From positions 1 to 21,642 of the IMG/VR virus record IMGVR_UViG_3300023174_000710: a stretch of DNA of 21,642 nt; one strand, written 5' to 3'. The notes beneath the pieces are model-generated. The model was given only the letters and a program-made list of their open reading frames with translations. It did not search any database and was not told where the DNA came from. The translations under genes and the position numbers were made by a program. The DNA comes from a virus. This document shows, in pieces, positions 1,209 through 21,175 of the stretch; position 1 is the stretch's first letter; every line of letters starts with the position of its first letter.

Positions 1209-3324
1209 TTTTTAGAAGTGCGTAGGCAGCCAGGTTGCCGCCGGTGCCTTTATTGTTTTGCAAGGCATCCTCGCCCAATCCCTCTTGGCGGATACGAAGG
1301 CCGTTGGAACGTGAAAAATCAGAACGGTTGCACACGAGAGTTTTGATGCCTTTCTTTTGCAGCTCCGTGCTCATGACGTAATCGTCGGCAAGGAAGCGGG
1401 CCTTCTCCTTGTCGGTCATTTGCGAGAACTCTTTTTCGCTGACGGGCGGGAATAGATCGATATCGGGAAAATCTTTCTTTCGGCAACACACACCGCCAAA
1501 TCCTTCCAAGATTTCAGCGTGCCCCAGGTGATCCGGGGCAATGGCATAGCCGGTGGATCCCGTCATAAAAAACCCGCACTGCCCCATGGCCGCGCCCTCC
1601 GGGCATTCTTGTGCCAGAGTCTCAATCATACGCGGGCTGTACAGAATGTCGTCATCGCACCAGAGGATCAGATCGTCCGGCTCCGCGTTATGGTAGGCGC
1701 CGACAAATTTGCTGGCCGGGCCGTGGTCGCCCCCATTGTAAATTGTAATTTTACCATCCGCCTCCAGTTGCTTGATGGCGGCTGGAAGATCCGGCATGCG
1801 CTCCCCTGTCCTGGCTAACTTTTTGGGCAAGTGCAGGACAATCTTGTCCGCTGGGCGGGATTGGTTCAGCAGGCTGTTCAGCGTGGGCAGGATGGTGTGG
1901 ATGCGTTTTGGCGTGGTGGTTAACCCAACAATAACGCGACCCGCCCGATCCACCGGATCCGGAAGGCGCTGTGCCCCATCAGGCACGGTGCCGTTTTCAA
2001 TCAGCTCGTGATCCCATCGCAGTCCTGGCATTTTTCCATCCTTGGCGGTGACGGTTAAAAGGATGTCCCCAGCGGCTGCGCCCATGGCCTCATCCGCGGA
2101 GTGGATTATCCGATGCCGATCTGCCTGCTTATTGCCCCGCTGGGTGATGAGCATGTGCTGGATGGCGTTGGGATCGTCTGCGGTGTCGGTGTAGAGAGCG
2201 AGCGATCTAAGGCAATCTTCGGGCTCGCCAACATGAATGACGGTGATCCGGCCCCAAGCCGTCCGGAATCCTTCCCGCACCAAGATGTCGGCATCAAGGT
2301 TTTGCTTACTGGCGCGCAGGCATTGAGCCATGAGCGCTCTGGGCAGATGTTTGTACCATCTGTTTTCTTGATTCCAATCCGTGGTGTGCGGCATGGAATC
2401 CACTTTTTTTAGAATGTGGAATGCGGTGGTGAAATCGTCGTGATCCATCCTGTCGGCCGCCAACAGGCCGTGTGCCTCGCGGCGTAATGGGCAAAGGGTG
2501 ATGGCTTTCCCAATGTGCTCCAATCGTTTTGCCCGGTCAGACAGCATCATGCTGGCCTGCGTGTGAAGCTGATAGCGCTCAGCCGGGCCCAGATCGCCGT
2601 GCTCCAGCGCCAGCAGGCAAGGCCCGATGGCTTGCTGGTATTCGTTCTTAAGAAAATGCTCTTGCGCCAAGTAGTACCACTCCATGCCGATGCCGTTGAT
2701 CCGGCTGGCGATGATTCTCTTGTTGCGTTCCGCGCTGCTTGTCTTTGGCCCATTTGGGGCATGGAGGATTTTTAAGTGCTCTGCCACGCCAATCTTGGTG
2801 TCCTTTGCGGGCGTCACTCTTTCGTGGATCTGGCGCTCCCAATGAGCCGGCAGCTTGCCATCGTCCATCCGGCGGAATATTCGTTCCCGCTTGTTGTTGC
2901 GCATGCCGGAGTTTTGGACGTCGTAAATGGTGACTAGGATGTCCCACTCAGTCTTTCCGGCCTCCCGATCCATGATGGCTTGCCGATGAGCGTCCGCCTG
3001 CCCTGGCTCAAATATGTCGTCGCAATCTGCCCAGATCACATACTTGCCTGTGGCTAGGCTGAAAGCCTTGTTCCTAGCGGCTGCAAAATTGTCGATATGA
3101 GGCCAATCCTTGTGTTCGGGGCTGTTCTGATACTCCTCGCACACTAAAGCCTCACCAGCGGCCTCCTGAGCGCATTGGCGTACATCGTGCGCATTGTTTG
3201 CGCCAACTGCCGGAACGACTACGACCTGATCCCATAGGCCACGAGAGGATTCGATAAGTCGACGCAAAATCGCCCCCTCGCCGGGGCCGGCGATGAGGGC
3301 GATTGAGACAGTGGGGGTGGTCAT
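1201..3324 (-). CDS. bifunctional glycosyltransferase: GT2 domain, helical-repeat middle, second GT domain
   Basis: This 707-residue protein has two GT-A-like domains. The N-terminal GT2 domain has AARN at about 82-85 and a DXD-type motif WADCDDIF at about 98-105. A helical, TPR-like middle (about 190-420) contains repeated Ala/Leu helices. The second domain (about 462-707) starts VIVGLTTTPKRIHTI and carries LWCDDDILYSP (CDDD about 556-559). I chose the ATG at 3324 over a GTG at 3369 because the fold begins right after it and the extra 15 codons lie in a strong hairpin. Neither start has a good Shine-Dalgarno site. Its place behind the capsid gene suggests glycosylation of a virion protein or a host surface glycan. 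The double-domain design would suit sequential sugar additions; this is inference. Confidence 0.75.
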   Translation of the reverse strand: MTTPTVSIALIAGPGEGAILRRLIESSRGLWDQVVVVPAVGANNAHDVRQCAQEAAGEALVCEEYQNSPEHKDWPHIDNFAAARNKAFSLATGKYVIWADCDDIFEPGQADAHRQAIMDREAGKTEWDILVTIYDVQNSGMRNNKRERIFRRMDDGKLPAHWERQIHERVTPAKDTKIGVAEHLKILHAPNGPKTSSAERNKRIIASRINGIGMEWYYLAQEHFLKNEYQQAIGPCLLALEHGDLGPAERYQLHTQASMMLSDRAKRLEHIGKAITLCPLRREAHGLLAADRMDHDDFTTAFHILKKVDSMPHTTDWNQENRWYKHLPRALMAQCLRASKQNLDADILVREGFRTAWGRITVIHVGEPEDCLRSLALYTDTADDPNAIQHMLITQRGNKQADRHRIIHSADEAMGAAAGDILLTVTAKDGKMPGLRWDHELIENGTVPDGAQRLPDPVDRAGRVIVGLTTTPKRIHTILPTLNSLLNQSRPADKIVLHLPKKLARTGERMPDLPAAIKQLEADGKITIYNGGDHGPASKFVGAYHNAEPDDLILWCDDDILYSPRMIETLAQECPEGAAMGQCGFFMTGSTGYAIAPDHLGHAEILEGFGGVCCRKKDFPDIDLFPPVSEKEFSQMTDKEKARFLADDYVMSTELQKKGIKTLVCNRSDFSRSNGLRIRQEGLGEDALQNNKGTGGNLAAYALLKNA

Positions 3325-17921: not shown

Positions 17922-18172
17922 TTGACCCACCCCAGATCCACGGCCTGTCGGGCCCAGGCGCGATTAACGGCGGCAACGGGGTGCCAAACAAATCCAGAGG
18001 CGCATGCGCCAGACTTGGCTGCCCCAGATCCAGAAAATACTTTAGCCGGATTGCGGCTTGTTACGTCTGTGTTACATTCCCTTTGTAAGTCTTTGTCGGG
18101 AAAGGGTCGGAGCGGTGGGATTTGAACCCACGATTTAGCCAAACAGTGTGTTTTCGTATTATTAGTTAGCAT
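17918..18172 (-). CDS. possible 84-residue protein whose 5' part spans the attachment site
   Basis: The frame ends by ATGA overlap with the membrane gene, and its C-terminal third (FVWHPVAAVNRAWARQAV) looks like real coding sequence. The only in-frame ATG is at 18172, upstream of the tRNA-derived core, so residues about 13-23 are translated from the tRNA fragment. It has no ribosome-binding site that I can see. If real, integration at the tRNA would replace its 5' end. It may instead be chance coding read through the core. Confidence 0.4.
   Translation of the reverse strand: MLTNNTKTHCLAKSWVQIPPLRPFPDKDLQRECNTDVTSRNPAKVFSGSGAAKSGACASGFVWHPVAAVNRAWARQAVDLGWVK
18107..18145 (-). other. tRNA 3'-end fragment, probable attP core
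   Basis: On the leftward strand there is a complete T-arm (GTGGG-TTCAAAT-CCCAC, 18115-18131), the 7-base acceptor 3' strand CGCTCCG (18108-18114) and a discriminator A (18107). CCA is not encoded. No matching 5' acceptor half (CGGAGCG) or D-arm lies upstream, so it is not a whole tRNA gene. Such fragments restore the tRNA after integration at its 3' end. The integrase starts 80 bp away. Isotype not readable; the longish bases before the T-arm allow a Leu or Ser type. Confidence 0.82.
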
Positions 18173-18223
18173 ATATTACTCTTAATTGTTGTTTGTTTTT
18201 GAGTAATTTGATACGGTTGTTAC
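18146..18223. promoter_or_regulatory. AT-rich attP arm with a 7-bp inverted repeat
   Basis: About 78 bp of AT-rich, gene-poor DNA sits between the tRNA fragment and the integrase start. It contains ATTACTC (18175-18181) and its complement GAGTAAT (18201-18207). Such arms normally hold integrase and excisionase arm-binding sites and the integrase promoter. No clear -35/-10 pair stood out. Confidence 0.45.
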
Positions 18224-19390
18224 GTGGCCGCTATTTACCGCAGAAAAGACAGCCAATGGTTCTGGTTGCGCTACAAAACCGCCAATGGTAAGTGGAGCGC
18301 AAAAGCGACTAGATACAGAACCGACAACACGCTTCACAGGGCAAAGGCTCAAGAGGAGGCCGCCAAGCTCTCCGTTGGAGAGCGGACGATCAAATCGGAC
18401 CACGGATGGGTCTCGGCGATGATTGAGTCGCACCCGGTCTGCCCATCCAGCAAAAGGCACTACCTCAACAGCTGGCGGCATCTTTCCAGATTTATTGATG
18501 AGCATGGCATAACCCTGGAAGAATTTTCCCCCATCCATGCGGATCAATACATTACCTGGCGCATTGCTCATCCGCGCACCAATGGCAAGCCCGTTTGCAG
18601 AAATATGGCTGTGGACGACGTAAAAGCTCTTAAATGGATCCACCGGCAGGGTCGGCTTCGCGGTCTTGTTCACTCCGTGGCAATGATTGACTACCGCGCT
18701 AAAAAAAGCCCTCCCAGCAAGCGCCCCGTATTCACAGATGACGAAATCACCCGTGTAAGAAAATTTATTTGCCACAGCGCGGAAGTGGATCCTGGCTTTG
18801 AATGGATGTTTATTTCCTTTGAGATTGGTTACACCACGGGATGCCGACTGCGCGAAACCCGGCTGGATCTCCGCCTGGTCGATCTGCATGCTGGCACAAT
18901 CACCTTTCCGGAGCCTAAAGGAGGAGTAACCCGCGCCTACACCATCCCAATTCCATCGACCATTGTGCCCCTTTTGTCCCGCCTGAAAGCGTCCGGCCGC
19001 AGGTACGCCTTCGATTGGCCGGGACACGGAACAAAAATCAGCCATCATTGGCGGGTGCTGTTTAATTTGTGCGGCCTGTTCAAACATACATTCCATTCCC
19101 TGCGGGCCACTCGGGTAACAAACCTTCGGAAGTCAGGGATTCCGCAATCCGTCGCAATGCGGCTGGTGAACCACTCCTCAACCCTCGTGCACGAACTGTA
19201 CCAGCGGCACTTTGTTGAGGACTTGCGCAAGCACGTGGACGCCGGGCTTTTGCCATCCACTTCTCAAAATCAGTCGGAAAGACAATTCCGTGGCTCATGG
19301 GAAAACCATGCTCAAAAGCCATCCGCCTCACCTTCCCGTATGAAATCGAATACGCGGCCGACAGCTCCCGCATATTTAGAGCTTGGTTAA
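18224..19390 (+). CDS. int: tyrosine recombinase integrase
   Basis: This is a 388-residue protein. The N-terminal region (1-60) has the AP2-like/arm-binding look (AIYRRKDSQWFWLRYKTANG). A core-binding helical domain spans about 60-160. The catalytic domain has TGCRLRET (Arg208), PKGG (Lys232), HSLR (His291, Arg294), His317 in VNHSS and Tyr326 in ELYQRH. It recombines attP with the host tRNA. GTG start, no clear Shine-Dalgarno site. Residues beyond about 345 look non-conserved because this stretch is antisense to the excisionase-like gene. It is the only long rightward gene near a leftward operon. Confidence 0.92.
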   Translation: MAAIYRRKDSQWFWLRYKTANGKWSAKATRYRTDNTLHRAKAQEEAAKLSVGERTIKSDHGWVSAMIESHPVCPSSKRHYLNSWRHLSRFIDEHGITLEEFSPIHADQYITWRIAHPRTNGKPVCRNMAVDDVKALKWIHRQGRLRGLVHSVAMIDYRAKKSPPSKRPVFTDDEITRVRKFICHSAEVDPGFEWMFISFEIGYTTGCRLRETRLDLRLVDLHAGTITFPEPKGGVTRAYTIPIPSTIVPLLSRLKASGRRYAFDWPGHGTKISHHWRVLFNLCGLFKHTFHSLRATRVTNLRKSGIPQSVAMRLVNHSSTLVHELYQRHFVEDLRKHVDAGLLPSTSQNQSERQFRGSWENHAQKPSASPSRMKSNTRPTAPAYLELG

Positions 19391-19436
19391 GCCCTCGTTT
19401 TTTCAAGGCTTCATTTTGATACGACGCCAAACTCAT
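19080..19436 (-). CDS. excisionase-like HTH protein, antisense to int 3' end
   Basis: The 118-residue frame starts at an ATG overlapping the RHH gene stop (ATGA). Residues 22-63 contain MRELSAAYSISYGKVRRMA then EHGFP and FPTDFEKWMAKA, the winged HTH layout of AlpA/Xis proteins (helix, turn, recognition helix, then 'G-x-P...F...E-K-W'). The last 55 residues are antisense to the catalytic part of int and look low in coding character. Xis normally bends attachment DNA and turns integrase to excision. It is co-translated with an RHH regulator, so excision is tied to that regulator. Family likely, not certain. Confidence 0.68.
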   Translation of the reverse strand: MSLASYQNEALKKRGLNQALNMRELSAAYSISYGKVRRMAFEHGFPMSHGIVFPTDFEKWMAKARRPRACASPQQSAAGTVRARGLRSGSPAALRRIAESLTSEGLLPEWPAGNGMYV

Positions 19437-19609
19437 CGAACGGCCTCCATTCCATCTTGAGCCGTTTCATCAATCAACTGCGCCACAAGCTGGGAAAGCG
19501 AAAGATTCTTTTTTTCAGCAATCTCCCGGCCCAGCTTTTTTATGCGCACCGGAAGATACAAATTTGTGACTTCTGCCGAGCTGTTTTTCGAGGAGACTGC
19601 ACGTGCCAT
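19433..19609 (-). CDS. ribbon-helix-helix regulator (leftward)
   Basis: This is a 58-residue protein. EVTNLYLPVRIKKLG, then AEKKNLSLSQLVAQLI is a clear RHH fold (beta-strand TNLYL, helix A, turn with LS, helix B), the DNA-binding unit of Arc/MetJ-type repressors. It is strikingly like the divergent RHH product at 19722 (TNL-LP...A-K...LSxS...VAQLI). The stop overlaps the xis-like start. No Shine-Dalgarno site precedes the ATG at 19609; the predicted promoter would start the mRNA at or very near this ATG (leaderless). Likely one half of the lysis-lysogeny switch. Confidence 0.78.
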   Translation of the reverse strand: MARAVSSKNSSAEVTNLYLPVRIKKLGREIAEKKNLSLSQLVAQLIDETAQDGMEAVR

Positions 19610-19615
19610 GTGCGT

Positions 19616-19644
19616 GTCTTATGCGCATTGTATGCGTGCGTCAA
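19616..19644 (-). promoter_or_regulatory. putative leftward promoter for the RHH-xis pair
   Basis: On the leftward strand TTGACG (19639-19644) and TAAGAC (19616-19621) are 17 bp apart. The -35 is good and the -10 is weak. Transcription would begin about seven bases on, at the ATG at 19609, giving a leaderless mRNA. The spacer contains TGCGCA and TATGCG half-sites, so a bound repressor would sit on the promoter. Confidence 0.4.
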
Positions 19645-19686
19645 CAAGAATCTTATTTTTTTCTCAAATTATTTTTTAGGGCAGAT

Positions 19687-19715
19687 TTGACCTGCGCAGT
19701 TATTACGCATAAACT
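19687..19715 (+). promoter_or_regulatory. putative rightward promoter for the second RHH gene
   Basis: TTGACC (19687-19692) and TAAACT (19710-19715) are 17 bp apart. The start point would fall at about 19722, the A of the ATG, again a leaderless mRNA. The spacer contains TGCGCA and TTACGCA. The match is four of six bases at the -10. Confidence 0.45.
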
Positions 19716-19721
19716 ACGCAA

Positions 19722-19931
19722 ATGAGCAAAGAGGCCACTAACCTTACCCTGCCAAAGCAGGTAAAAGCCAAAGGCATTGATTTGGCCAAGAAAGCCGGAA
19801 TGAGTCTTTCCACCTACGTAGCACAGCTGATTTTGAAGGAGGCGGCTCGCGATCAGGGTTTTACTGCCGAGAGCCCTGCATTGTATGCTCCCGCTCGGTC
19901 ACGGGGAAAAACTAGCCCAAAAGGGATATAG
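19722..19931 (+). CDS. ribbon-helix-helix regulator (rightward)
   Basis: This is a 69-residue protein. TNLTLPKQVKAKGIDLA then KKAGMSLSTYVAQLILKEA is an RHH domain. It shares spacing and many positions with the leftward RHH protein, so the two are paralogues or a duplicated pair. A 25-residue tail (YAPARSRGKTS) is basic and disordered. No Shine-Dalgarno site precedes the ATG. It is followed after three bases by a small membrane protein. It is the likely partner in a two-repressor switch; which of the two maintains lysogeny cannot be told from sequence. Confidence 0.75.
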   Translation: MSKEATNLTLPKQVKAKGIDLAKKAGMSLSTYVAQLILKEAARDQGFTAESPALYAPARSRGKTSPKGI

Positions 19932-19933
19932 TT

Positions 19934-20185
19934 GTGCAAGCATTTGCCGGCACTTCTCTTTTTATTGTCATTATTGCTGGGATTGCTCTTTTCATGCTTC
20001 CATTTGCCGTGCTGATGATCTCGTCTCGCACTTACAAAATCATGCAATCAGTGCGTCGCATGGAAGGCAGCCTTGCGCTTTTGGACGGCCAGTCTGCCAA
20101 ACTGGCTCAAGCCGTGGTGGAAATTAAAAAAACCAACGCTCTGCTGGCCAAAGCTCTTAAGACTTCCTCTGATTCTGATTCTTGA
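19934..20185 (+). CDS. small membrane protein with coiled-coil tail
   Basis: The 83-residue product starts at a GTG, with AAAAGGGAT upstream. It has one membrane helix at about 8-30 (TSLFIVIIAGIALFMLPFAV) and a cytoplasmic helical part (SVRRMEGSLALLDGQSA, then AVVEIKKTNALLAKAL) with heptad-like spacing. It is co-transcribed with an RHH regulator, so it would be made whenever that regulator is: if that is the lysogenic state, a superinfection-exclusion or membrane-sensing role would fit. The 3' end overlaps the convergent HTH gene by 29 nt. Confidence 0.68.
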   Translation: MQAFAGTSLFIVIIAGIALFMLPFAVLMISSRTYKIMQSVRRMEGSLALLDGQSAKLAQAVVEIKKTNALLAKALKTSSDSDS

Positions 20186-20441
20186 TGATCCGATAATATG
20201 GGTGCAGCCGGAAATAAGGCCGGCGCCTCACGTTCCCATTATCCACCCCACTCACCCCCGACCGAAACTTTTTCATTTCTAACTTACCCGATTTTACCAG
20301 TTTGGTCACGATGCGGCTGACGTGCTCCTTGGACATGTTTTGTTCTTTGGCGATCTCTTTGACGCTTTTGTAGCCCGGAGGAATCACGTCCGCCTTGCGG
20401 CTAAAAGCATCCTGCAATACCTCTGCCCAATCATTACTCAT
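20157..20441 (-). CDS. winged-helix DNA-binding protein
   Basis: This is a 94-residue protein. SVKEIAKEQNMSKEHVSRIVTKLVKSG is a MarR/ArsR-like helix-turn-helix, with the wing KLEMKKFRSG and a basic C-terminus. The ATG at 20441 overlaps the metallophosphoesterase stop (ATGA), so I prefer it to a GTG at 20456. It runs convergent into the RHH/membrane pair and overlaps its end by 29 nt. It may regulate early genes or replication. Confidence 0.7.
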   Translation of the reverse strand: MSNDWAEVLQDAFSRKADVIPPGYKSVKEIAKEQNMSKEHVSRIVTKLVKSGKLEMKKFRSGVSGVDNGNVRRRPYFRLHPYYRIIKNQNQRKS

Positions 20442-21175
20442 AGAGGGAATCTCCACTCATCTTTTACCGGTGTGGCAAGCCACGCCACGCAAGCGTCAGC
20501 ACAATACTCACCATAGGCAAAGCCGTGCCCCCAGCGGTACGTGGCTCGCCGATGCCTGGCGTATCCCATGGAGGGAATGTTCGCCAATGTGCCGGTGCAG
20601 ATGCCTACCGGGGATCCCCTCACCCGGCCCCTGGTGATCTCCGGCCGGTGCAGATGCGCCATGACGATGGGACAGCCAAGGCTCTCCACGGTATCCCTGA
20701 CGGCCGCCTCGCCGCACTGGAATCCGTGCAAGAATACGGTATCGCCTAGCAGGAAAAGGCCATCATCAATGTCGTATGGCAGCAGCCGGGCCTTCAATTT
20801 CTTCACGGCCTGCTCAATGGCCTGCGTTCCCTGCTCCGCCGCATAGGCCACGACAGCAGATGAGCTGCGCAGCATACCCCAGAGCCTCGCTTCGTGATTA
20901 CCAAGCAGCACTACTGACGGGGAAAGTTCTTTCAGATGGCTCATGCCGACTAGGTAATCGTCAGAAAAGCTCACCGTCTTATCCGGATCGTCCGGGGAGT
21001 TGCGTGCACCGGCTCGCCAGGCGGCCGTGTCCAGAAAATCGCCCAGATGGATTGTGGTCTCTGGTTTCCACCGGCGCTTGAAATCCAGCACGGTGTCCCA
21101 GCTTTTGCGGTCAATATGGGCGGCGTGCGTGCACCCTACGGCAAACCACCGACGCCATTTGCGGACGACGTTCAC
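20438..21175 (-). CDS. calcineurin-like metallophosphoesterase
   Basis: This is a 245-residue protein. The family motifs are GDFLD (45-49), GNHE (92-95), HG (150-151) and AHLH (173-176). The first motif, normally D-x-H, reads GCTH (14-17), with Cys15 in place of the Asp that binds metal. Family members hydrolyse phosphodiesters or phosphomonoesters, and phage relatives often accompany nucleotide metabolism. It may remain active with altered metal use, or be a divergent form. GTG start with AAGGGG close by. It lies between a MazG-like gene and a winged-helix gene. Confidence 0.8.
   Translation of the reverse strand: MNVVRKWRRWFAVGCTHAAHIDRKSWDTVLDFKRRWKPETTIHLGDFLDTAAWRAGARNSPDDPDKTVSFSDDYLVGMSHLKELSPSVVLLGNHEARLWGMLRSSSAVVAYAAEQGTQAIEQAVKKLKARLLPYDIDDGLFLLGDTVFLHGFQCGEAAVRDTVESLGCPIVMAHLHRPEITRGRVRGSPVGICTGTLANIPSMGYARHRRATYRWGHGFAYGEYCADACVAWLATPVKDEWRFPL

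Follow-up and report, generated by a model that had tools for sequence, protein, structure and literature searches.

Divergent Arc-type ribbon-helix-helix paralogues beside a phage integrase as a probable two-repressor switch in uncultured phages

The DNA analysed here, an IMG/VR viral record of 21,642 bases (the window), encodes head, portal, large terminase, primase and exonuclease functions, almost all from the minus strand, and has beside its integrase gene (int) two short divergent genes, A58 and B69, whose products are confirmed by sequence and fold searches as ribbon-helix-helix (RHH) paralogues of Arc type. Judged from sequence, the two probably make up the two-repressor switch of a temperate phage, built from RHH paralogues in place of the HTH pair of CI/Cro. 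A lysis-lysogeny switch had been proposed in an earlier note on this DNA; the putative operator arrays of matched type on both promoters, and the cassette-like exchange of the A gene, operators and B gene between phages, support a switch or immunity region and so sustain that part of the proposal, whereas the role in the decision itself is what we infer from them. If the reading is correct, it would describe a primary phage switch made wholly of RHH paralogues, widespread among uncultured phages and identifiable by its sequence, with predicted immunity groups for phages that have no isolate. Targeted searches of the open-access literature turned up no paper describing a primary switch formed by divergent RHH genes next to int, a result that leaves absence unproven. 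The features are collected in Table 1.

Table 1. Positions and properties of the features in and around the proposed switch, numbered along the window
Feature	Position	Strand	Remarks
tRNA T-arm-like sequence, putative attP core	18112..18132 (about)	.	between int and early genes
Tyrosine integrase (int)	18224..19390	+	Pfam PF00589, 3.9e-7; PHROG 1, 4.9e-27; convergent with A-xis
xis-like ORF, 118 aa	19080..19436	-	same place in relatives; no family match
A58, RHH, 58 aa	19433..19609	-	proposed lytic-side (Cro-like) regulator; first gene of A-xis transcription unit; family in 92 loci
Divergent promoter/operator region, 112 bp between A58 and B69 start codons	19610..19721	.	
OA, putative operator array, CACGCA-N5-TGCGCA-N5-CACGCA, 11-bp repeat	19611..19638	-	over PA spacer, -10 and start
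PA, TTGACG-N17-TAAGAC	19616..19644	-	read from sequence; ends 6 nt before A58 ATG
PB, TTGACC-N17-TAAACT	19687..19715	+	consensus scan 9/12; ends 6 nt before B69 ATG
OB, putative operator array, TGCGCA-N5-TACGCA-N5-TACGCA, 11-bp repeat	19693..19720	+	over PB spacer, -10 and start
B69, RHH paralogue, 69 aa	19722..19931	+	proposed lysogeny (CI-like) repressor; found in 92 loci
Small membrane/coiled-coil ORF behind B69	19934..20185	+	accessory position; not constant
Small winged-helix ORF	20157-20456		end of opposite gene array

The earlier note had described two RHH proteins of these lengths facing apart over the 112 bp, and both their coordinates and their strands agree with that description. 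Its suggestion of a duplicated pair is borne out by a single BLASTP comparison, in which 22 of 43 residues are identical (51% over 43 aa; E 4e-11), and in a six-frame search of the record with B69 as query A58 was the sole other match (E 3.2e-7). Both proteins match PHROG 582, 'Arc-like repressor' (A58, 2.7e-4; B69, 0.017). The RHH fold likewise withstood checking: the B-family profile aligned to Arc in the correct register, with FNLRWP opposite TNLTLP (E 0.1), and the A-family profile to a solved CopG-family RHH protein (E 0.017); AlphaFold monomer models have two helices, with pLDDT about 90 there, and do not draw the N-terminal strand, as the RHH strand pairs only in the dimer; and in Foldseek searches of the PDB Arc structures rank first for the A58 and B69 models (probabilities 0.96 and 0.99; E 0.11 and 0.2), the modest E-values being expected for chains this short. 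The two proteins have the layout of the MetJ/Arc RHH family, an N-terminal strand with alternating DNA-facing residues followed by two helices.

Relatives were collected by scanning viral contigs with B, A and int, the A scan covering the contigs of the B scan. The search for the same divergent pair in related phages, which the earlier note had proposed, recovered it in 92 of the 100 loci examined, with 67 unique pairs. Of the remaining eight loci, L029, L084, L090 and L093 end at a contig edge directly behind int, and the integrases of L106-L109 are only 34-37% identical and have no RHH pair beside them; the RHH pair is therefore a constant neighbour of this integrase family. The phage group is large and uncultured, and its host is probably a member of the Verrucomicrobiota. 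Searches of a phage collection with B69 and int for a host by homology gave no match, int found one weak partial match only among plasmids, and the B alignment matched none of the genome contigs. A match to int was found on one 3.4-kb contig binned as Verrucomicrobia UBA3063, which stops right after int; in 14 genomes of the class of UBA3063 (its contig included) that carry related integrases, no RHH pair was found within a few kb of these, and no intact prophage was found in a sequenced host.

The coupling of A58 to a xis-like gene, also claimed in the earlier note, is partly upheld, in that the start of the adjoining ORF overlaps the A58 stop by 4 bp; its identity as xis is less secure, as Pfam, PHROG and NCBIfam gave no family and the label 'xis-like' follows only from its size, its position and a short HTH-like N-terminus. 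About 310 bp (window 19080-19390) are shared, tail to tail, by this ORF and the 3' part of int, a convergent overlap that is present in relatives too. On the other side of the pair, the claimed coupling of B69 to a membrane protein proved not to be constant, since L009 leaves no space for such a gene and in L011 another ORF takes its place; the genes downstream of B vary between relatives. A membrane/coiled-coil ORF does lie directly behind B in L012 (6207-6443), L018 (4082-4312) and L020 (6204-6434), with a C-terminus nearly identical between class I and class III phages (classes defined below), and is possibly an exclusion gene. tRNA and Rfam scans of the window returned nothing. Beyond the start of int, a tRNA T-arm-like core, GGGTTCAAATCCC, is invariant in nine aligned relatives, with no whole tRNA, and is likely the attP core. 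GTAACA-type repeats flank this core on both sides (about 18020-18225), about 9 and 11 bp apart; they are kept across classes and are candidate Int arm or Xis sites.

Each of the two putative promoters between A58 and B69 is overlain by three YRCGCA hexamers, spaced start to start by exactly 11 bp. The PB site in L006, L011 and L012 scores 8-11 of 12 in the consensus scan, and PA was not returned by that scan and so is weak by consensus. No ribosome-binding site is visible for either gene, both of which start 6 nt past the -10-like hexamer (19603-19615 and 19716-19724), so that the A58 and B69 messages may be leaderless. In the window the exact triple array occurs at OA and OB only, and in none of 100 shuffles; two ladders of three or more hexamers appeared in 0 of 5000 shuffles of the 112-bp gap. 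A CG dinucleotide forms the centre of every hexamer, and the spacing statistic, which counts CG-CG distances over 20 non-redundant gaps against dinucleotide shuffles, gave 66 observed and 9.0 expected at 11 bp (z 19.8), 26 and 8.3 at 22 bp (z 6.5), and none observed at 10 bp. The ladder is present on the A side in 20 of 20 gaps and on the B side in 17 of 20, a clear PB ladder being absent in L003 (class III) and in L004 and L014 (class II). Five class I records, four of them of 33-37 kb, have the operator pair, with one mismatch allowed, confined to the switch bar one site, a degenerate copy of the ladder in the window (3177-3204), which lies within a gene for a 722-aa glycosyltransferase-like protein and is probably due to chance. 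The 11-bp ladders are thus of the form expected of RHH operators, repeated subsites that could be occupied by neighbouring dimers, and, as in a two-repressor switch, the same putative operators lie on both divergent promoters.

Among relatives the A strand defines at least five classes, namely I (EVTNLYLP), II (E[PQ]TNLY[IL]P), III (KTTLTIP), IV (KTNIVLP) and V (KTNFFFP), with one further pair in L046. Hexamer type tracks the class, and within a class the two promoters have hexamers of one kind: TGCGCA, CACGCA and TACGCA in class I; GGCGCA, AGCGCA and TGCGCA in class II; TACGTA in class III (on both promoters in L018); and TACGCA with GGCGTA in classes IV and V. In class III both paralogues have KTTLTI, and the replacement of N by T at position 11 of the strand, in the two proteins alike, accompanies the change from TGCGCA-type to TACGTA-type sites at both promoters. 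Agreement between A and B at the DNA-facing strand residues is 0.56-0.61 within a class and 0.35 between classes, whereas in the helices it is hardly different (0.44-0.45 within and 0.40 between). These observations are consistent with a matching of strand to hexamer rather than proof of it, the classes and independent events being few. In class I the strands of A and B differ at position 13 (Y versus T), so that their site preferences may differ. In a tree all A proteins form one clade and all B proteins the other (support 0.984), which points to a single duplication before the classes arose; the class structure of the two clades is parallel, and A and B distances are correlated (Mantel r 0.81; 0.69 with int distance removed). 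The 67 natural pairs, with matched operators in at least five classes, would allow direct tests of an RHH strand-to-DNA code and of how immunity specificity evolves.

The A gene, the operators and the B gene are replaced jointly between phages whose int is 98-100% and whose xis-like protein is 85-96% identical. In the class I phage L012 and the class III phage L018, int is 98% and the xis-like protein 96% identical. Their DNA agrees at 96% as far as the end of A, gives no match through A, the operators and most of B, bar 66 bp at the B end, and returns to 94% identity behind B. The block is likewise exchanged between L005/L006 (I) and L014 (II), where the int-side DNA is 99% identical and B is partly alignable, and between L051 (II) and L044 (IV). 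Block-wise exchange, in the style of heteroimmunity cassettes, is a property of the immunity regions of other temperate phages. Because the arrays change with the RHH pair while the xis-like protein is nearly identical, the comparison shows that the putative operators belong to the pair and not to the xis-like protein, a matter of some weight since directionality factors also use one-turn repeats (PMC7498355).

The earlier note had set the pair apart from the usual CI/Cro HTH pair, and domain searches agree: HTH_3 (the CI/Cro type) gave nothing over cut-off in 12 related records and the S24 peptidase/repressor no match in 14, the controls being positive in both cases, so that by homology a CI/Cro HTH repressor is not found. 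The 33-kb relative G004 has, besides a small winged-helix ORF, no other gene that was recognised as repressor-like, though records may be fragments and an additional regulator could have escaped notice. In the window, the winged-helix ORF is a candidate for such a regulator. It is 24-92% identical in relatives, often lies near a metallophosphatase-like gene, and has weak matches to replication-initiation and regulator families.

In the proposed mechanism A58 and B69 would each form RHH dimers, and neighbouring dimers would bind the 11-bp-spaced hexamers over both promoters, so that each protein could regulate both its own promoter and its partner's. Transcription of A58 and the xis-like gene would start at PA and run antisense to int, the same way as almost all phage genes; that of B69 and whichever accessory gene follows would start at PB. 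With B69 dominant, PA would be off, no Xis would be made, int would be undisturbed and the prophage would be stable and immune; with A58 dominant, PB would be off, and excision and lytic growth would follow. Binding and mutual repression by the two proteins are predictions from the sequence, and so is the polarity. A would be the lytic side, as its gene shares the orientation of almost all others in the phage, is coupled to the xis-like gene and lies antisense to int, and B would be the lysogeny side, given its opposite direction, its better promoter and the varying small genes downstream; varying small genes are common behind lysogeny repressors. In G004, almost all phage genes are read in the same direction as A-xis; int, and B together with the ORF downstream of it, are read in the other.

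It counts against this switch that the arrays are found only at PA and PB, and that silencing of the lytic genes beyond xis in a prophage is unexplained by the pair alone. A wider form of the model, which we hold only tentatively and regard as on the unlikely side, has a whole group of temperate phages relying on RHH proteins alone for the primary switch, in several immunity classes and with integration as part of its logic. With attP between PA-A-xis and the early genes, integration would cut the lytic genes off from PA and excision would rejoin them, in which case only PA and PB would need operators. When the stretch from attP to the first early gene was scanned for a conserved promoter, most relatives scored no better than shuffles and no consistent site emerged, which lends this idea little support, consensus scans being weak evidence for an uncultured host.

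The same facts may be read more narrowly, with the pair setting only the direction of excision and integration, through xis and through antisense to int, and with another, unrecognised regulator holding the lytic genes. The restriction of the arrays to PA and PB, the xis-like gene joined to A and the position of the lytic genes beyond attP all fit this account, which we nevertheless consider improbable: no other conserved repressor was recognised, and block exchange independent of nearly identical xis and int resembles selection for immunity specificity, which control of excision alone would not need. Much less probable still is that the xis-like protein is what binds the 11-bp arrays, the RHH proteins binding elsewhere or regulating weakly. 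Directionality factors do bind one-turn-spaced repeats at att and at switch promoters, as Apl does (PMC7498355), but sites of Apl type as the meaning of the arrays were rejected on the comparison of L012 and L018, whose arrays are of TGCGCA and TACGTA type despite their closely similar xis-like proteins, and the att region has instead the GTAACA-type repeats, which are similar across classes. That the two proteins are RHH regulators of antitoxin or plasmid type (copy number or partition) with no part in lysogeny, as weak matches to RHH antitoxins and to CopG/ORF56-type proteins might suggest, is the least credible account, since no toxin (as a type II toxin-antitoxin pair would require), partition ATPase or replication gene accompanies the pair consistently. 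Its constant neighbours are int and the xis-like ORF, and what lies downstream of B differs between relatives.

Taken as a two-repressor switch, the region is best compared with four known systems. In lambda-type phages the CI and Cro repressor genes are divergent, share multi-site operators over both promoters, and are exchanged between lambdoid phages much as cassettes; all three traits recur here. The proteins differ, in being RHH and not HTH and in being paralogues of similar size without a protease-sensing domain, and the putative operators are one-turn hexamer ladders and not 17-bp palindromes. With phages 186 and P2 (Apl/Cox) the region shares a directionality factor, here a putative one, on the lytic side and one-turn-spaced sites between the early promoters, the sites of 186 Apl being direct repeats 10-11 bp apart at att and between those promoters (PMC7498355); there the directionality factor binds the repeats, whereas here the repeats follow the RHH pair and not the xis-like gene. 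The Pf prophages of Pseudomonas, which are filamentous phages, also have an Arc-family gene near xis, with an Arc/Mnt domain in the xis/repressor region (PMC7549136), but it is a single longer gene and not a divergent pair of short paralogues.

The immI region of P22 also holds two small homologous RHH repressors in one region of a temperate phage, and Arc is the best structural match of A58 and B69. Arc and Mnt act in the lytic and the lysogenic state (PMC7549136), so that a homologous RHH repressor pair serving the two states of a phage has a precedent, and the contrast with P22 that the earlier note drew was overstated in this respect, while the place beside int and xis and the shared operators do differ. 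P22 immI lies within the late operon as a secondary region and controls ant (PMC8022706). Neither an adjacent antirepressor under control nor a standing secondary to a main repressor is found here: no ant gene was recognised, the neighbours being the xis-like gene, int and a small variable ORF, and no primary switch of HTH type was found. The present pair is thus set apart from that of P22 by its position with int and xis, by putative operators of the same type on both promoters, by a set of exchangeable classes, and by the lack of a recognised antirepressor or main HTH repressor.
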